From positions 1-64,000 of the forward strand of contig CACJJV010000003.1 of assembly GCA_902593845.1 (NCBI GenBank): a stretch of 64,000 nucleotides of DNA, read 5' to 3'. Under the pieces are notes generated by a model. It saw only the letters and a list, made by a program, of their open reading frames with translations. It was not told the DNA's origin and did not search any database. Origin of the DNA: an uncultured Pelagibacteraceae bacterium (lineage in GTDB: Bacteria; Pseudomonadota; Alphaproteobacteria; Pelagibacterales; Pelagibacteraceae). A program made the position numbers and the translations under genes. Every line of letters begins with the position of its first letter. Positions within the stretch are counted from its first letter, which is position 1. Below, one piece after another: positions 3,508 to 41,528 of the stretch.

Positions 3508-4506
3508 ATGTTTAAAAACAAGTCAATTTTGGTAACAGGTGGAACAGGTTCATTTGGTAAAAAATTTGTTGAAATTGTCTCAAAAAAATACAGCAATCAA
3601 ATAAAAAAACTAATTATTTTTTCAAGAGACGAGCTTAAACAGCATGAAATGTCTCAAGTTTTTAATATTGATAAATATCCTTTTATACGATTTTTTATAG
3701 GCGATGTTAGAGATAAGGAGAGACTCAATAAGGCATTTAAAGATATTGATTATGTAATTCATGCAGCGGCACTTAAACAAGTTCCGACGAGTGAATACAA
3801 CCCATTTGAAACAATAAAAACTAATATTTTAGGTACCCAAAATGTTGTAGACGCTTGCATTGATAATAATGTAGAAAAATTAGTTGCATTATCTACGGAT
3901 AAAGCAAGCTCTCCAATAAACTTGTATGGTGCAACTAAGTTATGTTCAGATAAACTTGTAGTTGGATCTCAAAATACCAAAGGTAATATAAAATTTACAG
4001 CTTGTGTTGTAAGATATGGAAACGTTCTAGGCAGTCGTGGGTCTGTTTTACCGGAATTTATTAAACAGAAAAGGAAAAACTTATTTACAATAACAAGTGA
4101 AGAAATGACAAGATTTAATATCCTACTTGAAGATGGAATTAAATTAGTTTTATGGAGCCTAAAAAACTCAAAAGGCGGTGAAATATTTATACCAAAAATA
4201 CCAAGTTTTAAAGTTATTGATCTCGCAAAGGCAATTGACAACAAATGTAAAATTAAAATAATTGGAATAAGACCTGGTGAAAAACTTCATGAGGAAATGA
4301 TTTCTGTATCTGAAAGTTATAATACTGTTGATTTTGGTAATTATTATTCAATTCTTCCAAATTTTCATGATTATTCAAGAGATCAATACATTAAGAAATT
4401 TGGGGGAAAAAAGGTTAAAAAAAATTTTTCTTATAATAGTTTTGAAAATAAAGACTATCTTTCAATTACAGATTTAAAAAAACTCATTAAAGATTTTAAA
4501 TTTTAG
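3508..4506 (+). CDS. pseB: UDP-GlcNAc 4,6-dehydratase (inverting), PseB type
   Basis: This enzyme would convert UDP-GlcNAc to UDP-2-acetamido-2,6-dideoxy-L-arabino-hexos-4-ulose, the first step of pseudaminic acid synthesis. The 332-residue length is normal for PseB. The Rossmann motif GGTGSFGKKF is at residues 11-20. The active site shows STDKASSPINLYGATK, with Asp131, Lys132, Tyr140 and Lys144. The C-terminal region with its Tyr-rich HDYSRDQY stretch and terminal Leu-rich helix is also PseB-like. It lies 28 bases after the previous gene and one base before pseC, which strongly supports the assignment. Confidence 0.92.
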   Translation: MFKNKSILVTGGTGSFGKKFVEIVSKKYSNQIKKLIIFSRDELKQHEMSQVFNIDKYPFIRFFIGDVRDKERLNKAFKDIDYVIHAAALKQVPTSEYNPFETIKTNILGTQNVVDACIDNNVEKLVALSTDKASSPINLYGATKLCSDKLVVGSQNTKGNIKFTACVVRYGNVLGSRGSVLPEFIKQKRKNLFTITSEEMTRFNILLEDGIKLVLWSLKNSKGGEIFIPKIPSFKVIDLAKAIDNKCKIKIIGIRPGEKLHEEMISVSESYNTVDFGNYYSILPNFHDYSRDQYIKKFGGKKVKKNFSYNSFENKDYLSITDLKKLIKDFKF

Positions 4507-4507
4507 T

Positions 4508-5677
4508 ATGATACCTTATGGTCGTCAAAGTATAGGTAGGCAGGACATTAAAAACCTAAATAAAGTTTTAAAGTCTAATTGGCTAACTCAAGGACCTTTA
4601 GTAGAAAAGTTTGAAAGAGAAATTTGTAAATTTGTGGGTGCAAAATACGCGGTAGCAACAAATAGTGCTTCAAGCGCGTTACATATCTCATGTTTAGCCC
4701 TCGGGTTAAAGTCAAATCAATATTTTTGGACGGTTCCAAATTCATTTGTAGCTTCGGCAAATTGTGGACTGCATTGTAAAGCTAAAGTTGATTTTGTGGA
4801 TATAGATAAAGATACATGGAATTTATCACCGGAAATTTTAAAGAATAAATTAAAAAAAATTAAAAATAAAAAAAAAATACCTAAAATTATAATTCCTGTC
4901 CATTTTTCAGGTCAATCCACTGAACAAAAAGAAATAAAAAATTTATCAAAAAAATATAAATTTAAAATTCTTGAAGATGCATCACACTCGTTGGGAGGAA
5001 TGTATAAGGGAGAAAAAATTGGAAGTTGTAAATGGTCAGATGTGACAGTTTTTAGTTTTCATCCTGTCAAAACAATTACAACGGCAGAAGGTGGAATGGC
5101 AGTAACAAATAATAAGAAGATTTATAAAGAGCTTTTAAAGTTAAGAAATAATGGGATAACAAAAGATATAGGTGATTTTGAAAAAAAAATAAAATCCATA
5201 TGGTATTATGAGCAACAATCTCTTGGATTTAATTATCGTATGAACGAGCTTGAAGCATCCTTAGGTCTTACTCAACTAAAAAGGATAAAAAAATTTATAA
5301 AGGAACGAAATCTTATATCTAAAAGATATATGTCTTTGCTTAAAGATACCCCTTTACAATTACCTTCGATAAGAAGATATAACTACTCAACCTTTCATCT
5401 TTTTGTTGTTAGATTCAAATCAAAGTTATTAAAAAAATACTCATATGATAAGTTTTTTAATTATATAAGAAAATTAGGAGTAGGTATTAATCTTCATTAT
5501 TTACCTATACATCTTCAGCCATACTTTAGAAATTTAGGTTTTAAGGAAAATTATTGTGTGAATGCTGAACAGTTCAGTAAAGAAGCAATAAGCCTTCCAA
5601 TTTATTATGGCTTAAAAATTAAAGAGCAAAAAAAAGTTGTAAAAATAATTAAGGATACTTTTAATAATTTTAAATAA
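4508..5677 (+). CDS. pseC: UDP-4-amino-4,6-dideoxy-AltNAc transaminase, PseC type
   Basis: This is a DegT/DnrJ/EryC1-family PLP aminotransferase of 389 residues. It starts IPYGRQSIGRQD and continues with NWLTQGPLVEKFE, the typical PseC opening. The PLP pyridine-binding Asp is Asp157 in KILEDASHS, and the Schiff-base lysine is Lys188 in FSFHPVKTITTAEGG. It should aminate the PseB product at C4 using glutamate. It directly follows pseB with one intervening base, so the pair is surely co-transcribed. The next step of the canonical pathway, PseH acetyltransferase, is not present nearby. Confidence 0.92.
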   Translation: MIPYGRQSIGRQDIKNLNKVLKSNWLTQGPLVEKFEREICKFVGAKYAVATNSASSALHISCLALGLKSNQYFWTVPNSFVASANCGLHCKAKVDFVDIDKDTWNLSPEILKNKLKKIKNKKKIPKIIIPVHFSGQSTEQKEIKNLSKKYKFKILEDASHSLGGMYKGEKIGSCKWSDVTVFSFHPVKTITTAEGGMAVTNNKKIYKELLKLRNNGITKDIGDFEKKIKSIWYYEQQSLGFNYRMNELEASLGLTQLKRIKKFIKERNLISKRYMSLLKDTPLQLPSIRRYNYSTFHLFVVRFKSKLLKKYSYDKFFNYIRKLGVGINLHYLPIHLQPYFRNLGFKENYCVNAEQFSKEAISLPIYYGLKIKEQKKVVKIIKDTFNNFK

Positions 5678-5679
5678 AT

Positions 5680-5760
5680 TTGCGTTATGAAGTTGACTCT
5701 GGTACTGCTTCAGAGATGATAAAAGAGATGATAAATAAGAATATAAATTTTACAATATAA
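5680..5760 (+). pseudogene. possible 3' remnant of a lost gene between pseC and the methylase
   Basis: The 102-base gap after pseC holds a 26-codon stretch ending in TAA that reads like a protein C-terminus: LRYEVDSGTASEMIKEMIN and then seven more residues. It has no good start codon or ribosome binding site, and the same frame meets a stop just upstream. The balanced, amphipathic composition differs from typical AT-rich intergenic sequence here. It may be the tail of a gene lost by recombination in this variable region. The parent family was not recognised, and chance coding appearance remains possible. Confidence 0.3.
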
Positions 5761-5779
5761 TAAAAATACAAGAAAATTA

Positions 5780-6409
5780 GTGAGTTCTAAAGTGTCTAAT
5801 AAATTAAATGAGCAAGAAAAATTTTGGCTTGGTGACTTTGGTAAAAAATATATCAAAAGAAATTATTCAAAAAAAATACAAAAAAATACAGATATTTTTT
5901 TTAAAAAAATATTTAAAAAAAAAAAGAATATTAAAACAATAATTGAACTTGGGGCCAATGTTGGAAATAACATAAAAAGTCTATCAAAAATATATCCAAA
6001 ATCCAAAATTACAGCTGTTGAAATAAATGAAAGAGCATGCAAAATATTGAGAGAAAAATTTGATAATATAAAAGTTGTTAACTCAAATTTAGCATCATTA
6101 AAGATTAAAGAAGATTATGAGTTAGTTTTATGTAAGGGGATTTTAATACATATTAATCCAAAGCAGCTAAATAAAATTTACAATAAAATTTTTACATTAT
6201 CTAAAAAATATATTTTAATTGCTGAATATTATAGTCCATCACCAACAAAAATAATTTATAGAGGAAAAAAAAATAAGCTTTTCAAGAGAGATTTTGCAGG
6301 TGATTTAATGAATAGGTATAACTTGAAATTAGTAGATTATGGTTTTAGCTATAGATACGAAAAATATCCACAAGATGATCTGACATGGTTTTTACTTAAA
6401 AAAAATTAA
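5780..6409 (+). CDS. pseudaminic-acid-associated methylase (SAM-dependent)
   Basis: This is a class I SAM methyltransferase of about 209 residues. Its N-terminal QEKFWLGDFGKKYIKRN matches the FWxGxFGxxYxxRN opening of the methylase family associated with pseudaminic acid loci (TIGR03587). The SAM-binding motif is IIELGANVGNN near residues 54-64, with an acidic AVEINE at the end of the next strand. The annotated start is GTG at 5780; a second in-frame GTG at 5792 is equally possible, so the first four residues are uncertain. Its place just after pseB-pseC supports methylation of a nonulosonic acid or its precursor. It is convergent with the hisF-like gene, overlapping it by four bases at the stop codons. 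Confidence 0.8.
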   Translation: MSSKVSNKLNEQEKFWLGDFGKKYIKRNYSKKIQKNTDIFFKKIFKKKKNIKTIIELGANVGNNIKSLSKIYPKSKITAVEINERACKILREKFDNIKVVNSNLASLKIKEDYELVLCKGILIHINPKQLNKIYNKIFTLSKKYILIAEYYSPSPTKIIYRGKKNKLFKRDFAGDLMNRYNLKLVDYGFSYRYEKYPQDDLTWFLLKKN

Positions 6410-7155
6410 ACTCTTAAATTTACTTTTTTTCTAATTTTTTGCTTTACAGAGTGAGGTGTTATTTGTGTATAAAAAAAAATACTTGAGGCACAGGCTCCCA
6501 TTACTTTTTTTTTAACTAAAATTTTTTCAAAATCTTTTATTTTACCACAGCCACCGTTTATTATAATTGGCTTATTAATATATTTGTAGATATAATCTAA
6601 TAAATCATAATTGTATCCATTCATCATTCCTTCATTATCAACAGATGTTAACAAAATTTCTCCAACATTCTGATCTTGAACAAACTTTATCCACTCAATC
6701 AAATCAATATCTTCATTATTGTTTCTTTTATTAAAAATCTTAAATTTTCCTCTATCTTTAATAATATCTATTCCAATTGTAATACTTTGACTTCCAAATA
6801 TTTTTACAGTGTGATTAATTAATTTAGGATTTTCCAAAAAACCTTTGTTAATAATTACTTTATCAAAACCAATATTTAATAATTCTTTGACCTCATCTCT
6901 AGAATTTATCCCTCCACCTATAGATAATGGTAGTGTGCATTCTGATATTATCTCCTTTAAAAAATGAATTTCAATCTTACCTCTTCCACGACTCGCATCC
7001 AAATCAATTATTGTAAGTTCATCACTTTCTCGTTTATTGAAAACTTTAATTGATTGTATTATATTTCCGATAACTCTGTCTGAGTTAAATTTTTTTGTTT
7101 TGACTAATAAATCATTGCTTATTAAAAGAACAGGTATTATCCTTTTTTTTAACAT
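6406..7155 (-). CDS. HisF-like cyclase subunit of a sugar amidination module
   Basis: This 249-residue TIM barrel is clearly related to imidazole glycerol phosphate synthase subunit HisF: opening KRIIPV, PLSIGGGI phosphate-site loop, EILLTSVDNEG and IIINGGCGK. The Asp at position 11 of histidine-biosynthetic HisF is replaced by Leu (VLLISND), while the second catalytic Asp is kept in IGIDII. HisF2-type proteins in O-antigen loci share this change as far as I recall. With the HisH-like glutaminase and the PP-loop amidotransferase that precede it, it probably delivers ammonia for making an acetamidino group on a surface sugar rather than histidine. It overlaps the hisH-like gene by seven bases. 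Confidence 0.82.
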   Translation of the reverse strand: MLKKRIIPVLLISNDLLVKTKKFNSDRVIGNIIQSIKVFNKRESDELTIIDLDASRGRGKIEIHFLKEIISECTLPLSIGGGINSRDEVKELLNIGFDKVIINKGFLENPKLINHTVKIFGSQSITIGIDIIKDRGKFKIFNKRNNNEDIDLIEWIKFVQDQNVGEILLTSVDNEGMMNGYNYDLLDYIYKYINKPIIINGGCGKIKDFEKILVKKKVMGACASSIFFYTQITPHSVKQKIRKKVNLRV

Positions 7156-7775
7156 ATTTTTTTAACAAAATTTTCAATTAATTTTATTCCAACGCCCATA
7201 CTTTTTTCTGGGTGAAATTGGACTGCAAAAATATTTTTTTGGTTAATAGATGAAACAATATTTTGATTATCTTTCAGAGTGGAGGTGATAATTTTCTTAT
7301 TCTCACAATTACAATAGTAGCTGTGATTAAAATAAAAATCTGAATTATCTTTAATATCTTGAAATAACAAATTTTTTTTAATTTGAATATTATTCCAGCC
7401 ATTATGAGGGCAGACTATGTTCTTTTCCGAGATTTTAAGTACCTTACCTTTGATTAAGTTTAATCCTTTTAAAGGTTTATGATAATTACTTTTTTCACTT
7501 TCCTCACTTTCTTTAAATAGTATTTGCATCCCAACACATATACCAAGATAAGGTATATTTTTTTTCACCAAAAATAAAATTTTTTTATCTAAATTGAATC
7601 TTTTTATATTTTCTGCTACTTTGTTAAAATTTCCAATTCCTGGGAAAATAATTCCACTTATACTACCAACATCCCAATTTTTTTGGTCAGAGAGAACAAA
7701 TTTTAATTCAAGCTTTTTTAATATATTAATCCATGCTCCTAAATTTGCAGTTTCAGATTTAATAAGAAGAATCAT
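7149..7775 (-). CDS. HisH-like glutamine amidotransferase of a sugar amidination module
   Basis: This class I glutaminase of 208 residues has the nucleophile Cys80 in YLGICVGMQ and the His188/Glu190 pair in FHPEKS near the C-terminus, so the triad is complete. It resembles HisH, but its position between a PseA/WbpG-type amidotransferase and a divergent HisF argues for a role in polysaccharide sugar amidination, releasing ammonia from glutamine. It overlaps the upstream gene by one base and the downstream hisF-like gene by seven. The three genes probably form one operon read leftward. Confidence 0.85.
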   Translation of the reverse strand: MILLIKSETANLGAWINILKKLELKFVLSDQKNWDVGSISGIIFPGIGNFNKVAENIKRFNLDKKILFLVKKNIPYLGICVGMQILFKESEESEKSNYHKPLKGLNLIKGKVLKISEKNIVCPHNGWNNIQIKKNLLFQDIKDNSDFYFNHSYYCNCENKKIITSTLKDNQNIVSSINQKNIFAVQFHPEKSMGVGIKLIENFVKKIC

Positions 7776-8908
7776 TAATATTTTTTGACCACACCGTATT
7801 TCCTCTTAATCAAATTTCCTGAATTATCACATTTAAATAATTTTTTGTTTGTAAATCTATCACAACAGTTTAAAAATTCTTCCATAGATACATCTATTTT
7901 CTTTAAAGTAATTTCAATATTTTCACCTAAATAAGTATATGGAAAAGATCCATCATGTTTATCAATATTTTTTTTTGCATCATTTTTTGAAATTAATTTT
8001 CTTCTTAATAGATTATTCATTATATCTGTAGTTCGACCGAATCCAAATTTCAAGTATTTAAAATAATCGTGTATTCCAGTTTGAAAATTATCTAAATTTT
8101 CATAAGAAACACCTGTCCCTTCAACTAATGTTTTATTAAATTTGAAACCATATTTTTTAGCATCTATTGCATTTCTGTAACCATCCCATTCAAAATAATG
8201 CCCTAAAAATAAACTTTTTAAATTAAGTTTTTTTAATTCTTTATTTTTTGGATATATATAAGGTGATAGTTCATCTATCTGAAAATTATAATGATTATGA
8301 AGATCTTCAACTCTCAATCCAAGCAGACCACCAAATTCCTCTAGCCAAGCTCTGTTTAATGATTTATTTTCTAAAGCAAATTTTGGTCCACCATATTCAT
8401 TTTGTGAATTTTCACCCCAAATCATAAATTGTATCTTAAATTTGACAGCAATGTTAAAGGGAATCGTAAACATAGATGCATGTTCAGGCCAAGATATATC
8501 TCCTACCTCTAGTAAACCAATTTTGTTTAATCTTCTCCTAATCTTTAGATTTGGTGCAACTTCAATAACATCAACACCTAGGGAGCGAATATTATCTAAA
8601 TTTTCTCTACCAAGTTGAGTAAGGTCGCAAGTTCGAGAGTTAACACACAAAGGTTTTAAATTATATTCTAAAGCTTTAATAACTTGCCACGTGCTATCCT
8701 TTCCCCCACTAACAGGGACAATACAATCATAATCACCTATTCTTTTTTTTTTAACAACGCTAACTATCTTTTGAAAATCTTTTTCCCTTTTTTTCCAATT
8801 TATTTTTTTTCTGTTAGCAAATGAAACGCATGCATTACAAATTCCATCTTTATTAAACTCAAGATCAGGCTTAGTTGATGGATAAAAACAATTTTTGCAG
8901 TAAATCAT
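7775..8908 (-). CDS. N-acetyl sugar amidotransferase (WbpG/PseA/WbuX family)
   Basis: This 377-residue protein opens with a Cys cluster (YCKNCFYPSTKP, then GICNACVSF) likely to bind zinc. It continues with a PP-loop ATPase motif VPVSGGKDST near residues 64-73. This arrangement matches the N-acetyl sugar amidotransferase family (WbpG, PseA, WbuX), which turns an N-acetyl group into an acetamidino group. The reaction needs ammonia supplied by the HisH/HisF-like pair that follows. The likely target is a nonulosonic acid or its precursor, since pse and leg genes flank the module. It is transcribed divergently from the SpsF-like gene across a 110-base gap. Confidence 0.88.
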   Translation of the reverse strand: MIYCKNCFYPSTKPDLEFNKDGICNACVSFANRKKINWKKREKDFQKIVSVVKKKRIGDYDCIVPVSGGKDSTWQVIKALEYNLKPLCVNSRTCDLTQLGRENLDNIRSLGVDVIEVAPNLKIRRRLNKIGLLEVGDISWPEHASMFTIPFNIAVKFKIQFMIWGENSQNEYGGPKFALENKSLNRAWLEEFGGLLGLRVEDLHNHYNFQIDELSPYIYPKNKELKKLNLKSLFLGHYFEWDGYRNAIDAKKYGFKFNKTLVEGTGVSYENLDNFQTGIHDYFKYLKFGFGRTTDIMNNLLRRKLISKNDAKKNIDKHDGSFPYTYLGENIEITLKKIDVSMEEFLNCCDRFTNKKLFKCDNSGNLIKRKYGVVKKY

Positions 8909-9018
8909 TTATTAGTCTTGATTTTTATATGTGTTCTTATTTGAACATAATTCATATATATGAAATGTATTCAAATATTGTATAAATACTTTATTAAACT
9001 TAAAAAGTACAGAAATTT

Positions 9019-9699
9019 ATGATTTTTGATATAATTACACAAGTAAGATTTAAATCAACTAGACTTCCAGGTAAAATTTTTTTAAAATTTTTAGACACTA
9101 ATTTTCTAAGTTTTTTTATAACTAATCTAAAAAAAATTAAAAATGTAAGAAAAGTCATTTTAGCCTGTCCTGATGATGAGTACAAAGATATTTTCGTTTT
9201 ATTTGCAAAAAAACTAAAGGTAGATGTTTTTTTTTTTAAGGGAGATCCAAATAATGTTTTGAAAAGATATTTTTATTGTGCTAAAAAATTTTCGTCTCCA
9301 AACATCATTCGTATAACATCTGATTGTCCATTTATTAACCCTTTCTTAGTATCTAAAATGATTAAAATTTACCGAAATAATAAGGTCAACTTTTTAACAA
9401 ATAATAAGCCTAGATTAATTCCTCACGGGTTTGACTGTGAGATTATAAAGTTTGACTTACTCAAGAAAACATACAACTCCGCAAAAAAAAAAGATGAAAA
9501 AGAGCATGTAACACCATGGATTTATAAAAATTATTTTGATAAAAAAAAAAATTATACAGGATTATTGAAAAAAAATTATTCTCATCTTAGACTTACTTTA
9601 GATACTCCAAGTGATTACTTATTCTTTTTGAAAAATTCAAAAATTCTTAAATCAATTGCTACAAAGAAAAAATTTCAACCATACTTTAATAAAATCTAA
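9019..9699 (+). CDS. SpsF-like cytidylyltransferase family protein
   Basis: This nucleotidyltransferase of 226 residues is of the SpsF (COG1861) type. The N-terminal ITQVRFKSTRLPGK corresponds to the nucleotide-binding QARxxSTRLPGK motif. ACPDDEYKD, the NVLKRYFYCA segment and IRITSDCPFINP follow in the usual order. Such proteins are found in spore-coat and nonulosonic-acid loci and may activate the sugar as a CMP or similar derivative. It is the only cytidylyltransferase-like gene seen in the nonulosonic region, so it could supply the activation step, though SpsF is distinct from the PseF/NeuA family. The next gene starts two bases after its stop. Confidence 0.75.
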   Translation: MIFDIITQVRFKSTRLPGKIFLKFLDTNFLSFFITNLKKIKNVRKVILACPDDEYKDIFVLFAKKLKVDVFFFKGDPNNVLKRYFYCAKKFSSPNIIRITSDCPFINPFLVSKMIKIYRNNKVNFLTNNKPRLIPHGFDCEIIKFDLLKKTYNSAKKKDEKEHVTPWIYKNYFDKKKNYTGLLKKNYSHLRLTLDTPSDYLFFLKNSKILKSIATKKKFQPYFNKI

Positions 9700-10622: not shown

Positions 10623-11783
10623 TTAGATATTTAAGTAAAATTTTTTAATTACATCTTTTTTTTTTGTGATGTGTAGAATTTTAGAGTATATTCTTGATGT
10701 AGTATTGAGTTTTTCATAAACATTATTAACTTTTTTTATTTTGTTTTGAAAGGATTTTGAATAAAGTTTTTTTATCGCGTTTTCAATAGTTTTTGTATTA
10801 ACTTTACAGTCTATGATAGACGAACTTTTTGATCTACCCTGCTGTCTATTACCAATATTAATTGTACCTTTTTTTAAAGTAGGAACTTCAATAATACCAC
10901 TTGAAGAATTACCTATTACTCCATCGCACAAATTTATTAAGGATAAGTAATTCTCATACCCAAGTGATTTAAAAAAAACAAAATTAGAATTTTTTTTTGT
11001 AAAATTGATAATGTTTTTCTGTATTTCTTCTGAACCTTTATCAAAGTTAGGAGAGGTAATAAAAAACTTAATGTCTTTGTATTTTTTGAGAGAATTAAGA
11101 ATCAAATTTATTTTTATTTTTTGATTTGTTTTTAAATATGTTTCAGGATGGTATGTGAAGACAAGATTTTTTTTGAAAAAATTTGTTTTTAGATTTTTTT
11201 CAATTTGCTTTTTACTATAAAATTTTATTTTTTTTATAGAGTCTACACTTAAAGATCCATAGTTATAAACATTTTTTGGATTTTCCCCCATTTGTATCAC
11301 TCTTTTTTTGTTAATTTCATTAGCTACAAAATGAAAATCAGAAAATTTTGTAATTGAATGTCTAATAGATTCATCTATTGCACCATATGTTACTTCTCCA
11401 CCATTAATGTGAATAATTTTAGATCTGTTTAAATAGGCTAAATATGCTAAAGGTATCATTTCAAACCTATCACCAAAAATAATATAAAAGTCTGGATTTA
11501 TTTTTTTAAAAATATTTTTGAAATATCTAAAAGTATTATTAACAATTTCAACATCATTAAGTTTATTTTTTTTACTATTTTTTAAAATATCAACTTTTTT
11601 GAAAATATTAATTCGATCTTTTTTAATTTCTTGAATTGTTTCACCGAAATCTTTAGAAAGATGAGTCCCAGATACCGCTAGATAAAAAATAATTTTTTTT
11701 GATGATTGAAGTAACGAAATTAAATTTTTACATGATCCATAATCTGACCTAGAAGTAGTTATAAAAAGAATTTTTTTTTTCAT
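10623..11783 (-). CDS. UDP-HexNAc 2-epimerase (hydrolysing), NeuC/LegG type
   Basis: This 386-residue protein starts KILFITTSRSDYG, the classic NeuC/LegG opening. It has IIFGDRFEMIPLAY, IIHINGGEVTYGAIDESIRHSITK and a C-terminal VIGNSSSGIIEVP with the UDP-binding Ser-Ser-Glu site. It should remove UDP and invert C2 of a UDP-HexNAc to give a mannose-configured precursor for NeuB-type condensation. It is the last gene of a four-gene leftward block (LegC-like, formyltransferase, NeuB-like, this gene) with overlapping ends. Context favours LegG over NeuC, because a LegC-type aminotransferase is present. Confidence 0.87.
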   Translation of the reverse strand: MKKKILFITTSRSDYGSCKNLISLLQSSKKIIFYLAVSGTHLSKDFGETIQEIKKDRINIFKKVDILKNSKKNKLNDVEIVNNTFRYFKNIFKKINPDFYIIFGDRFEMIPLAYLAYLNRSKIIHINGGEVTYGAIDESIRHSITKFSDFHFVANEINKKRVIQMGENPKNVYNYGSLSVDSIKKIKFYSKKQIEKNLKTNFFKKNLVFTYHPETYLKTNQKIKINLILNSLKKYKDIKFFITSPNFDKGSEEIQKNIINFTKKNSNFVFFKSLGYENYLSLINLCDGVIGNSSSGIIEVPTLKKGTINIGNRQQGRSKSSSIIDCKVNTKTIENAIKKLYSKSFQNKIKKVNNVYEKLNTTSRIYSKILHITKKKDVIKKFYLNI

Positions 11784-12814
11784 TTTATTTTTTTATAACT
11801 CAAAATTGAGTTTGTTTTTACGTCGCTCTTTAAAGTTTTTCCAATAATTTTTTTGTAATCAATTGGTGAAATTCCTTCAATTCGTGGTCTAAGAGCAACA
11901 AGGTCACTTTTTTTAATTTTATGATTTTTTTTTAAATTTTTAGAGAAATAAATTGATTTTTTTGCAATTTTTTTTGTTAAACTTTCTTTTATACTTATTG
12001 TATTTCTATTATCTTTAAGACTAATTTTAATATCACGAATATCTCTCACAAATTTGGCTAGTTTTTTACAATCTAAAGATGCATTATGATCTGGTCCTTC
12101 CATATTATTATCAAGGGTAATATGTTTTTCAATTATCACTGCTTCCTTAGCAATCGCCGCAATTGCTGCAGAAGAGCCTATTGTGTGGTCAGAAAAACCA
12201 ACTTGGTATCCAAACTCTCTAATTTGCTCAATTGCACCTAATTTTGTATCTTTTAAATTTGTTGGGTAATTGCTTACACAATGTAGTATTGCCAATTTAT
12301 TTTTTTTAAACTTAATTATTTTTAATATTTTTTTTAATTCATTTATTTTTGTCATCCCGGTAGAGAGTATGACTGGTTTGTTGAAACTTTTTATTGTTTC
12401 AATTAAGAAAACATTATCATTATCTGTCGAAGAAATTTTAAATGCAGGTACATTTATCCTATTTAAAAAATAAGCGCTATCTATATCAAAAGGCGTAGAT
12501 AAAAAAATGATACCTTTCTTATTACAATAATTTTTTAACTTAACAAAATCTGGATATTCCAAATTATATTTTTCAATTAAGTCATTCATGTTTTTGAATC
12601 TAGTTTTTTTTTGATATTTAGCTAGCGGTGTATTTTCAACCATTAAATTTTTAATGTTTATTGTTTGAAATTTGACTGCATCACACTTAGCGGCAACAGC
12701 ATAATCAATTAATTTGAAAGCGTTATTAATGTTTCCATTATGATTAATTCCAATCTCAGCAATTATAAAAGGTAAACTTTTATTTGAAATTATTTTATTA
12801 TTTATCTTAATCAT
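11780..12814 (-). CDS. nonulosonic acid synthase (NeuB/LegI family)
   Basis: This synthase of 344 residues condenses a 2,4-diamino or N-acetyl mannose-type sugar with phosphoenolpyruvate. The TIM barrel shows AEIGINHNGN at about 19-28, AVKFQT, LSTPFD and ILHCVSNYPT. VGFSDHTIG, EKHITLD and the metal-site GPDHNASLD follow. The C-terminal 60 residues form the antifreeze-like SAF domain (SIYFSKNLKKNHKIKKSDL, RPRIEGI). All core motifs are intact. It overlaps the formyltransferase gene by eight bases and the neuC-like gene by four. Neighbours suggest legionaminic- or pseudaminic-type rather than plain neuraminic acid. Confidence 0.9.
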   Translation of the reverse strand: MIKINNKIISNKSLPFIIAEIGINHNGNINNAFKLIDYAVAAKCDAVKFQTINIKNLMVENTPLAKYQKKTRFKNMNDLIEKYNLEYPDFVKLKNYCNKKGIIFLSTPFDIDSAYFLNRINVPAFKISSTDNDNVFLIETIKSFNKPVILSTGMTKINELKKILKIIKFKKNKLAILHCVSNYPTNLKDTKLGAIEQIREFGYQVGFSDHTIGSSAAIAAIAKEAVIIEKHITLDNNMEGPDHNASLDCKKLAKFVRDIRDIKISLKDNRNTISIKESLTKKIAKKSIYFSKNLKKNHKIKKSDLVALRPRIEGISPIDYKKIIGKTLKSDVKTNSILSYKKIK

Positions 12815-13508
12815 AATTAATCAAAAAATATTTTCTATTTTTAATTTTCAAAAAAGGTTTAAAGTTTTTTGTATATGTGGCTTTAATTATCTTATCTAAA
12901 TTTGATTTGTTCTTTACAACATTAATTTCATATAATTTCTCTAAATCTTTAGTGGTATATAATTTTTTAGACCACCTAAATTTAATTTTTTTGAGGTTGG
13001 AATAGTAATATTTCTTATTTTTTAAACAATTTTTAATTACTCTAATTGCTTGTGAGAACATTATTTGATGAGTTTTTCCTAAAATTTTTTCAATATTATC
13101 TTTATTACTTAATTTAAATTTAACAACATCAATTATTTTTCCATTATCTATTTTATGATCTATATAATGTGCAGTGCTTCCATAAAATTTACTATTTTTA
13201 TAAATAGCAAAATTTACTGCTCCGATGCCTCTAAAATTTGGAGGTCCAGGATGGAAATTAATAGCTCCATATTTTGATTGATTGATTAATTTTTTTTTTA
13301 AAATAAAATAACTCCTAAAACAAAAAATAAAATCAAATTTTTTATTTCTTATTTTTCCGATGTCAATTTTTTTATTTCTCTCTTTACTTTCAAGGTAAAT
13401 AAGTGTTTTAGAATTTTGATTTAAATATTCTTTTATTTTATTTGAATATATACAGTTTTCCCTCCCAAAAAATAATACACTTTCGAAACCTCTTTTGTTG
13501 TTGATCAT
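12807..13508 (-). CDS. sugar N-formyltransferase-like protein
   Basis: This 233-residue protein belongs to the methionyl-tRNA/GART formyltransferase fold. The catalytic triad is visible: Asn84 and His86 in INFHPGPPNFRG and Asp121 in HKIDNGKII. It is shorter than Fmt and lacks that enzyme's C-terminal tRNA-binding domain, as do sugar N-formyltransferases. It sits between a LegC-like aminotransferase and a NeuB-like synthase, where an acetyltransferase (LegH/PseH) would be expected, so it probably formylates the newly made amine using N10-formyl-tetrahydrofolate. The substrate is inferred from context only. Confidence 0.8.
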   Translation of the reverse strand: MINNKRGFESVLFFGRENCIYSNKIKEYLNQNSKTLIYLESKERNKKIDIGKIRNKKFDFIFCFRSYFILKKKLINQSKYGAINFHPGPPNFRGIGAVNFAIYKNSKFYGSTAHYIDHKIDNGKIIDVVKFKLSNKDNIEKILGKTHQIMFSQAIRVIKNCLKNKKYYYSNLKKIKFRWSKKLYTTKDLEKLYEINVVKNKSNLDKIIKATYTKNFKPFLKIKNRKYFLINYD

Positions 13509-14668
13509 CTTATTTTATAGCTACTACTAGGCAAATTGATAATTCTTTTATGTATTTTAATTGCATTATCTAAATTCATTTTAGGAAATTTTTTTAGATG
13601 ATTTAAAGTGTGCAGTAATTCCCACGCAGGCCTTAACATAATCTTATTTTCATAACTTTTCTTTAAAATTAGATCCCTAATATTTTGTTTTTTTTCATTT
13701 AGAATTAAAGTTTGAAGCCAAAAATTACTTTTACTAAATTTTGGTTGATCCATTATTTCTATGAAATTAAATTTTGAAAAATGTTTCTTATATTTTTTGT
13801 ATAATTTTCTTTTTTCGATTAAAATTTTTTTTAAATATTTTAATTGTAAAAATCCGACCGCAGCATTTAGATTCGGCATTCTATAATTATAGCCAATCTG
13901 ATCATATGAATATTTCCAAATATGAGGAATCTTTGAATTTGAAATTAAATACCTTGCTCTCTTTGCTAAAGTTTTATCTCCAGTTAGTATTGCACCACCC
14001 CCAGCCGTAGATATTGTTTTGTTACCATTAAAACTTAAAATTCCAATTTTTCCAAATGTTCCTAAATGTCTATTTTTATAAAAACTACCAATAGCCTCAG
14101 CTGCATCCTCTATTAAAATTAATTTATATTTTTTACAAAGCTTAAGAATATTTTGAATATCTGCTGAATGCCCAAATGTGTGTAGAATAATTATAGCTTT
14201 AATAATTTTACCTGTCCTTTTGTTAATACATTTATTTTTTTTTATAATGCTTATTTTTTCTAGATAATTGTCTAATTTTAAACAATCAACTCCTAATGAA
14301 TTTTTTTCAATATCTACGAAATGAGGGGTTGCACCACAATAAATGGTTGAATTTACACTAGATATATAGTGAAGAGTTGGAATTAAGATTTCGTCATTAT
14401 TTTTAACATCGATAAGCTTTAAAGATATATGTAATGCAGAACTTCCAGTATTAGTTGTTATAACATATTTTGATTTTGTTAATTTTATTAATTTATCCTC
14501 AAATTTTTTAACAAATGGACCTATCATAAATTTTTTATTATGCAGCGTTTTATTAATAAATTTAAATTCTTTTTTTGGTAAGAATGGCTCGTGCAATTCT
14601 TTAGATAAATTTTTAACAACCTTTAATATGGAATTAACTACTGCATTAATTAAAATCTTATTTTTCAA
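13505..14668 (-). CDS. LegC-type sugar aminotransferase (DegT/DnrJ family)
   Basis: This is a PLP-dependent sugar aminotransferase of 387 residues. ELHEPFLPKKE leads into the fold, TTNTGSSALH binds phosphate, Asp188 in LIEDAAEAIG contacts the pyridine nitrogen, and the Schiff-base Lys217 lies in SFNGNKTISTAGGG. The FNGNK context is that of the LegC subfamily, which aminates UDP-4-keto-6-deoxy-GlcNAc. It starts the leftward block, overlapping the formyltransferase by four bases. A matching LegB dehydratase is not in the window, so the 4-keto substrate may come from outside it or from another dehydratase. Confidence 0.85.
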   Translation of the reverse strand: MKNKILINAVVNSILKVVKNLSKELHEPFLPKKEFKFINKTLHNKKFMIGPFVKKFEDKLIKLTKSKYVITTNTGSSALHISLKLIDVKNNDEILIPTLHYISSVNSTIYCGATPHFVDIEKNSLGVDCLKLDNYLEKISIIKKNKCINKRTGKIIKAIIILHTFGHSADIQNILKLCKKYKLILIEDAAEAIGSFYKNRHLGTFGKIGILSFNGNKTISTAGGGAILTGDKTLAKRARYLISNSKIPHIWKYSYDQIGYNYRMPNLNAAVGFLQLKYLKKILIEKRKLYKKYKKHFSKFNFIEIMDQPKFSKSNFWLQTLILNEKKQNIRDLILKKSYENKIMLRPAWELLHTLNHLKKFPKMNLDNAIKIHKRIINLPSSSYKIR

Positions 14669-41410: not shown

Positions 41411-41528
41411 CTGCCGGTGATTATTGCGAGAGAGTTATACCCGACACCATTCCGAACTCGGAAGTCAAGCCTTTCTGCGCCGATGATACTTTGTCTTAAG
41501 ACATGGGAGAGTAGGACGTTGCCGGCAT
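41411..41528 (+). rRNA. rrf: 5S ribosomal RNA, separated from 16S-23S
   Basis: The sequence begins and ends with complementary TGCCGG (41412-41417) and CCGGCA (41522-41527), forming helix I. Inside are CGACACCATTCCGAACTCGG, the near-invariant 5S loop, and GGGAGAGTAGGACGTTGCCGG at the 3' side. Length is normal for bacterial 5S. No 23S or 16S gene is present in the 41 kb upstream within this window, so the gene is transcribed apart or reads out of the island. The ends are estimated to within a few bases. Confidence 0.93.

Follow-up and report, generated by a model that had tools for sequence, protein, structure and literature searches.

In the established legionaminic acid (Leg) pathway, LegB and LegC make a nucleoside diphosphate (NDP)-linked 4-amino-4,6-dideoxy-N-acetylglucosamine (GlcNAc), N4 is then modified by an acyltransferase, LegG carries out hydrolysis and epimerisation, addition of phosphoenolpyruvate by LegI turns N4 into N7, and LegF activates the resulting acid with CMP. 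Here, we describe an operon related to this pathway in a 64,000-nt stretch of DNA from an uncultured Pelagibacteraceae bacterium (positions 1 to 64,000 of contig CACJJV010000003.1, assembly GCA_902593845.1; hereafter the window). Compared with the series LegB-C-H-G-I-F, the locus has LegC, NeuC/LegG and NeuB/LegI, and LegB-, LegF-, PtmE- and PtmA-like genes lie on another contig of the assembly (C1), whereas LegH was not found in the assembly and a sugar N-formyltransferase (FT) stands in its slot.

N-formyl nonulosonates are already known. The cited passages on Halorubrum sp. PV6 report 5-N-formyl-legionaminic acid on the S-layer glycan and, as here, Leg genes clustered with a formyltransferase gene, HrrPV6_1050 (PMC6137143). 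That system differs in being archaeal, in carrying the formyl group at 5-N and in having LegH and a NeuD homologue also assigned, and its formyltransferase is assigned there only as possible (PMC6137143). Marine Pseudoalteromonas distincta, according to the review passages cited, has 7-N-formyl pseudaminic acid, likewise a nonulosonic acid of 5-acetamido-7-formamido type from the sea but with the L-glycero-L-manno stereochemistry of pseudaminic acid (Pse) (PMC3210612). In the flagellin glycosylation islands of Geobacillus, which also hold formyltransferase genes, fmt3 occupies the place of the acetyltransferase gene fdtC found elsewhere, and the authors, in the passages cited, infer formylation (PMC5109656). 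The same kind of slot argument has therefore been published, although the fmt3 swap concerns the dTDP-3-oxo-6-deoxy-D-galactose route rather than Leg and is itself drawn from gene place (PMC5109656). We found no report of a bacterial Leg route in which an FT takes over from the acetyltransferase in the open-licence literature among the matches listed; nothing was found there on SAR11 together with legionaminic acid, and SAR11 with nonulosonic acid led only to work on coccolithoviruses.

A formyltransferase is also named for the Pse route in the PDB, where PseJ is represented by entries 6ci2, 6ci4, 6ci5 and 6edk. PseJ of Anoxybacillus kamchatkensis reportedly formylates the 4-amine in place of PseH, as Reimer et al. 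are said to have described in 2018. It differs from our case in belonging to the Pse (L-altro) branch, in being a distant profile match to the operon FT (1.6e-8) and in taking the place of PseH, whereas the operon FT takes the place of a NeuD/PglD-type enzyme.

The operon spans 10623-14668 on the minus strand (Table 1). All four open reading frames (ORFs) described by a first-pass annotation of this DNA were confirmed, and they overlap in the order LegC, FT, NeuB, NeuC by 4, 8 and 4 bases. LegC scores 426.7 bits against TIGR04181, above the cut-off of 420, and its best PDB match is the sugar aminotransferase 7b0m (4e-59). We took the first TTG in frame as its start; because this start is unproved, residue numbering in LegC is uncertain, and Lys217, present as annotated, is the pyridoxal phosphate lysine if the TTG is right. 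NeuC scores 411.1 bits against TIGR03568 (cut-off 235.9) and best matches the hydrolysing GDP/UDP-N,N'-diacetylbacillosamine 2-epimerase 5xvs/5zlr (2.1e-64), whose reaction is that of LegG. NeuB best matches NeuB/SiaC (1xuu, 7.7e-53) and reaches 349.3 bits against TIGR03569, under the cut-off of 399.65, with a far lower PseI score of 241.7. A Pse type for the operon was considered and rejected, as the NeuC and LegC scores favor Leg. The four-gene set by itself is an incomplete pathway; LegB-, CMP-transferase- and PtmE-like genes are on C1.

The FT scores 47.5 bits against PF00551 (Formyl_trans_N, gathering threshold 26.1), and this N-terminal formyl-transfer domain is the only Pfam domain seen in it. 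Sugar N-formyltransferases are recognized by a catalytic Asn-x-His ... Asp motif. The corresponding residues here, Asn84, His86 and Asp121, are as first annotated, are invariant in an alignment of 12 FTs and align with identical residues of 6nbp and WbkC in a profile search of the PDB. The AlphaFold model (predicted local distance difference test score 89.7, predicted template modeling score 0.86) is nearest in fold to WbkC, a GDP-perosamine 4-N-formyltransferase (E 1.1e-13, TM 0.72), and next to VioF, a 4-N-formyltransferase of dTDP-4-amino-4,6-dideoxyglucose (dTDP-Qui4N), with methionyl-tRNA formyltransferases ranking after both at weaker E-values. Identity to WbkC and VioF in the structure alignments is 12-20%, and perosamine and Qui4N go straight into O-antigens, not into a nonulosonate. 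In the profile search, the matched solved structures included 6nbp, WbkC, ArnA, WlaRD, VioF and PseJ; PseJ ranks behind WbkC, ArnA, WlaRD and others and is not the closest solved FT.

Seven NCBIfam models, among them PurN, Fmt, ArnA and dTDP-Qui4N FT, match the protein, all far under their cut-offs. On these scores we rejected its identification as PurN, Fmt or PurU; separate genes named PurN and Fmt by length and match stand elsewhere in the genome. We also rejected a broken FT, given the intact triad, the absence of a stop and the confident model. Because genes named Fmt and PurN occur in the genome, the formyl donor is likely available.

We compared what follows LegC in relatives within the family. 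Sixty loci were selected for their LegC scores, of which 47 exceed the cut-off and 13 fall slightly short of it, and four came in via the FT (L041-L043 and L045, the last of which qualifies by LegC score too; the truncated match G337 was left out). L and G numbers denote loci and genomes, respectively. Of these 64, 63 were readable: L111 was excluded, as its row describes another gene, and the other 59 LegC-chosen rows matched. Genes were assigned to one operon if on the same strand with gaps ≤300 bases. Relatives' genes were named by best BLAST match to proteins of the window's genome, so that labels are family-level except for the L045 genes, four NeuD genes and single representatives, which were tested directly.

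Immediately after LegC, 20 loci have a NeuD-family acetyltransferase, 9 have NeuC, 8 PtmE, 6 NeuB or a second NeuB (NeuB2), 5 an FT (L045, L086, L088, L129, L137) and 15 another gene. The first-pass annotation had proposed that the FT stands in for an N-acetyltransferase between LegC and the epimerase, and the relatives, the predicted fold and a search of the genome (below) support this; it had expected the displaced enzyme to be a Gcn5-related N-acetyltransferase (GNAT), and the comparison points instead to the hexapeptide NeuD/PglD type (20/63). All four NeuD genes tested score over the TIGR03570 cut-off. The one compared with the PDB is nearest to PerB, a pilin glycosylation protein, VioB and PglD. 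VioB/VioF and PerB/WbkC are acetyl/formyl pairs, each acting on one amine, and therefore mirror the exchange of NeuD for FT.

The closest parallel is L045, an eight-gene run PtmE-LegC-FT-NeuB-NeuC-LegB-LegF-PtmA with no NeuD, in which LegC (472.5), NeuB (446.4) and NeuC (442.7) score over their cut-offs and LegB (432.7) is under 475. A NeuB-type synthase lies in the fetched stretch around 10/12 FT loci (the window, L041-L043 and L045-L050) and in neither L044 nor L051. The genome from which L044 derives (G145, 60% complete) has a NeuB-NeuC-LegF-PtmA-LegB-LegC run about 27 kb from its FT and no NeuD match.

Among operons with both LegC and NeuB, none of the eight with an FT and no PIG-L deacetylase gene has NeuD, compared with 3/5 of those with FT and PIG-L and 18/33 of those with neither (L111 excluded). 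For FT without PIG-L versus neither, p is 0.006, and between 0.02 and 0.05 when only LegC-chosen loci are counted. At the genome level, NeuD was searched in 80 genomes, excluding 20 with weaker LegC matches. It is present in 3/17 FT genomes (the 12 of the FT alignment and those of L086, L088, L127, L129 and L137) versus 42/63 others (Fisher p 0.0006). Adding two genomes whose FTs keep the Asn, G351 (L110) and G257 (L113), gives 4/19 versus 41/61 (Fisher p 0.0005). NeuD and FTs that keep Asn-His-Asp, the latter from more than one tree group, thus tend to exclude each other.

LegC exceeds its cut-off in 49/397 family genomes and matches at E≤1e-90 in 98/397; the FT is found at E≤1e-20 in 12/397, own genome included. 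The product had been called an uncommon sugar for such an organism, but nonulosonate genes are not unusual in this family; the FT is rarer. At E≤1e-6, 314/397 genomes match the FT, nearly all beyond those 12 far more weakly, and these matches are presumably mainly PurN.

The FTs are of several kinds. In a tree of 30, the window FT and that of L045 belong to a supported nine-member group (98/90); a separate group (99/99) unites the L127 FT with the slot FTs of L086, L088 and L129, and the L137 slot FT lies elsewhere, next to the PurN of the window's genome (86/85, on long branches). Asn-x-His and Asp are conserved in all of these. Six further FTs, set in nonulosonate clusters beside PIG-L deacetylases, lack the Asn and carry Gly, Gln or a gap in its position: two on the genome's own C1 (L009:5904-7946) and those of L093, L096, L119 and L141. 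Because three of these loci (L093, L096, L141) keep NeuD, the Asn-less FT beside PIG-L seems to do a different job, perhaps re-acylation of the other amine once it has been de-N-acetylated. L129 has a slot FT plus a PIG-L gene further down.

Ten LegC/NeuB clusters carry instead an ATP-grasp ligase of one BLAST cluster (Table 1), whose representative in L107 has PF02655 and a PylC-like N-terminal domain, and eight of them also have a 2-hydroxyacid dehydrogenase (representative L104: PF02826). NeuD occurs in 0/10 of these loci and genomes versus 45/70 others (p 0.0001); L113 also has an FT further off. By attaching an amino acid or a hydroxy acid, this ligase may provide a third way of filling the acyl step.

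We searched the window's own genome, whose assembly is 87.9% complete, for an acetyltransferase that could fill the LegH role, a check the first-pass annotation had called for. When ACETYLTRANSFERASE was sought, no PseH was found even at E≤1, and the same search was positive in 14/14 control genomes. The NeuD/PglD type (TIGR03570) gave no match at E≤1e-25 in the genome and none on the window's contig (C3). Three weaker NeuD-like matches were a 189-aa gene (L055) beside an apparent cysteine synthase gene, judged to be CysE; a 275-aa gene (L170) beside a DapE-like gene, judged to be DapD; and an uninspected match at E 0.02. The CysE and DapD calls rest on our reading of the neighboring genes. 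A GNAT (PF00583) occurs at two places in the genome and nowhere on the window's contig, in line with the earlier remark that none is visible at the locus; one is beside a PurK-like ORF and the other between LolA-like and HIT-like ORFs (neighbors read from translations), among apparent housekeeping genes. On this basis, we rejected a LegH hidden elsewhere in the genome. Absence of a PseH or NeuD acetyltransferase is well supported but, because the assembly is incomplete, not final.

Taken with the gene order, these results make it probable that the FT adds a formyl group to the 4-amine that LegC produces, with N-formylation replacing N-acetylation on the way to 7-N-formyl-legionaminic acid. In such a route, LegB, encoded on C1, would make NDP-4-keto-6-deoxy-GlcNAc, LegC would aminate its C4, and the FT would move a formyl group from N10-formyl-tetrahydrofolate to the C4 amine. 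NeuC/LegG would then remove the nucleotide and invert C2, and NeuB/LegI would condense the resulting 2-acetamido-4-formamido-2,4,6-trideoxymannose with phosphoenolpyruvate. Because N4 of the hexose becomes N7 of the nine-carbon acid, the product would be 5-N-acetyl-7-N-formyl-legionaminic acid, which the LegF-like CMP-transferase of C1 would activate and glycosyltransferases of the island around the operon would place on a surface glycan. We infer the substrate, its nucleotide (GDP or UDP), the stereochemistry at C2 and C8, the product and the surface placement.

Several observations weigh against this route. NeuB and LegB both score under curated cut-offs. The Fisher tests treat related genomes as independent, and several of the compared genomes are incomplete. 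Among the 17 FT genomes, the FT is not always in the slot itself, and NeuD is somewhere in three (G016, G241, G288). NeuD is also in 4/15 FT loci (L093, L096, L141, L110), and in L110 a different FT type with the catalytic Asn adjoins it, a counterexample to clean exclusion. Sixteen of the 63 LegC loci have no NeuD, FT or ATP-grasp gene; some routes therefore take their acyl group from another source or have none, and an empty slot cannot by itself serve as proof. An acetyltransferase could be hidden in the break that separates the starts of C1 and C3 within the island. In an ordinary N-acetyl route, an acetyltransferase outside the assembly, or a promiscuous one, would act, and the FT would have no activity or modify another target: the incomplete genome and the break within the island would allow this, the 16 loci make trans-acting enzymes possible, and in G016 NeuD is about 44 kb from the FT. 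We nevertheless regard it as quite improbable, considering the failure to find PseH or NeuD at the thresholds above, the assignment of the two stronger NeuD-like matches to CysE and DapD by their neighbors, the conserved FT triad and the depletion of NeuD in FT genomes.

It is also unlikely that LegC and the FT make a free 4-N-formyl-N-acetylquinovosamine (4-N-formyl-QuiNAc, a formyl-bacillosamine-like residue) destined for the surface polysaccharide while NeuC and NeuB separately make N-acetylneuraminic acid or another nonulosonate. The nearest solved FTs, WbkC and VioF, do act on sugars that enter O-antigens directly, many LegC/DegT enzymes serve free 4-amino-sugars, the genome's own LegB is on another contig, and L044 and L051 have an FT without NeuB in the fetched stretch. 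The FT gene, however, overlaps both LegC and NeuB, between which it lies, an order that recurs in L045; NeuC matches the N,N'-diacetylbacillosamine epimerase better than the bifunctional UDP-GlcNAc 2-epimerase (2.1e-64 vs 1.6e-33); and a NeuB-type gene accompanies most FT loci. Least probable, and in our view very unlikely, is that the FT serves a Pse-type route encoded in the same island, yielding 7-N-formyl-Pse as with PseJ, with the Leg route receiving another acyl group. PseB and PseC of that route score over their cut-offs, a PseI-like synthase comes close (332.2 vs cut-off 340.25), and no PseH was found for it either. Yet two separate FTs, though without the catalytic Asn, are encoded on C1 close to the PseI-like gene, the window FT overlaps LegC and NeuB rather than Pse genes, and L045, with the identical order, has no PseB, PseC or second NeuB in its run.

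The acyl step might be an exchangeable cassette on a LegC-NeuB-NeuC core across the family, filled by NeuD, by one of at least two separately placed FT groups or by the ATP-grasp ligase with 2-hydroxyacid dehydrogenase, the genome studied here having the formyl version. This tentative reading is based on the lack of NeuD in ATP-grasp clusters (0/10). Exchanging the cassette would leave the remaining steps untouched and change a single small substituent on an exposed sugar, perhaps in response to phages. If formylation of the LegC product holds, a member of a highly abundant group of ocean bacteria makes N-formyl nonulosonic acids, with a folate-dependent step standing in for acetyl-CoA-dependent acetylation. 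The slot comparison would provide a simple, testable way to read the N7 group off genome sequence, and, since these genes lie in a surface island that changes quickly, surface chemistry might become predictable across SAR11-like genomes and relatable to phage pressure.

The rRNA-flanked layout of this island fits hypervariable region 2 (HVR2) of SAR11 as defined in the cited passages of PMC2217521, and the DNA is AT-rich; placement of the genome in or near SAR11 is based on these two features. One island seems to be split between the window's contig, with the 5S border, and C1, with the 23S border, and their starts would face each other across a gap. The first 9 kb of C1 supply parts missing from the window. 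The LegB-type dehydratase there, outside the operon, is a full-length match at 446 bits (cut-off 475); the CMP-transferase scores 98 bits against PseF (cut-off 205.7) and is read as LegF-like; and PtmE-like nucleotidyltransferase and PtmA-like reductase are candidate names, with no cut-off passed. An extracellular polysaccharide (EPS)-type MarR regulator is in this stretch as well. C1 also encodes the two further FTs, the PIG-L deacetylase and the PseI-like synthase (NeuB2).

Judged by its genes, the island carries both a Leg-type and a putative Pse-type set. The latter, at window positions 3508-9699, comprises PseB, PseC, a Pse-associated methylase, WbuX, HisH/HisF-like genes and a cytidylyltransferase; PseB, PseC, the methylase and an N-acetyl-sugar amidotransferase, also encoded in the window, are all over cut-off. 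No clear PseG was found in the genome, the one weak place scoring 42.9 bits against a cut-off of 153.55.

Table 1. Positions of the operon, island features and comparison loci (window coordinates unless a locus number is given).
Feature	Position	Strand	Evidence
LegC-type pyridoxal phosphate aminotransferase, first operon gene	13505..14668	-	TIGR04181 and PDB match
Sugar N-formyltransferase (FT), in acyltransferase slot	12807..13508	-	PF00551, triad N84/H86/D121
NeuB/LegI-type nonulosonic acid synthase with SAF domain	11780..12814	-	TIGR03569, PF03102, PF08666
NeuC/LegG-type hydrolysing 2-epimerase	10623..11783	-	TIGR03568 and PDB match
PseB, second nonulosonate route	3508..4506	+	TIGR03589, 473.4 > 407.75
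PseC, second nonulosonate route	4508..5677	+	TIGR03588, 480.9 > 423.5
CTP_transf_3 cytidylyltransferase-like, candidate CMP-nonulosonate synthase	9019..9699	+	PF02348, 81.7 bits
5S rRNA, one border of HVR2-like surface island	41413..41527	+	Rfam RF00001, 74.7 bits
23S rRNA, other island border, contig C1	L009:11301-14053	-	Rfam RF02541, 2700 bits
16S rRNA, contig C1	L009:14447-15921	-	Rfam
ATP-grasp loci	L097, L098, L100, L101, L103, L104, L107, L113, L143, L144		
Gene adjoining NeuB	L046:6335-7183, L047:11694-12557, L048:11492-12358, L050:6153-7025		

Class- and phylum-wide searches with the FT (E≤1e-15) gave matches of mixed kinds in 33/337 and 21/398 genomes, own included, and a NeuB-like gene was present in two (L174, L176) of eight inspected stretches. 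The best relative outside the family, from the same class (G473:C162:6181-6852, L173; 206.7 bits), is beside apparent sodium-pumping NADH dehydrogenase genes, not nonulosonate genes, as read from translations. A contig scan for FT gave a single weak relative with no nonulosonate genes around it. On plasmid pLO2 of Vibrio anguillarum serovar O2, a formyltransferase-family gene (L172:3305-4021) shares 31% identity with the window FT across 94% of its length; among the other eight annotated genes, none is named as a sugar gene.

A search of phage records with the FT returned five distant matches. On viral contigs L182-L185 and L187-L190, an FT relative adjoins a gene of about 200 aa resembling a shortened DegT-type aminotransferase (Pfam-tested only in L187), and the same contigs have an NDP-sugar epimerase-like gene.

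Four FT/NeuB clusters without a NeuC match have a similar-looking gene adjoining NeuB (Table 1). In L047, this gene encodes a xylose-isomerase-like TIM barrel (PF01261) that might supply a further epimerase or isomerase step. In L048, one 455-aa frame (L048:9086-10453) joins a nucleotidyltransferase domain (PF00483) to a window-type FT that follows it.

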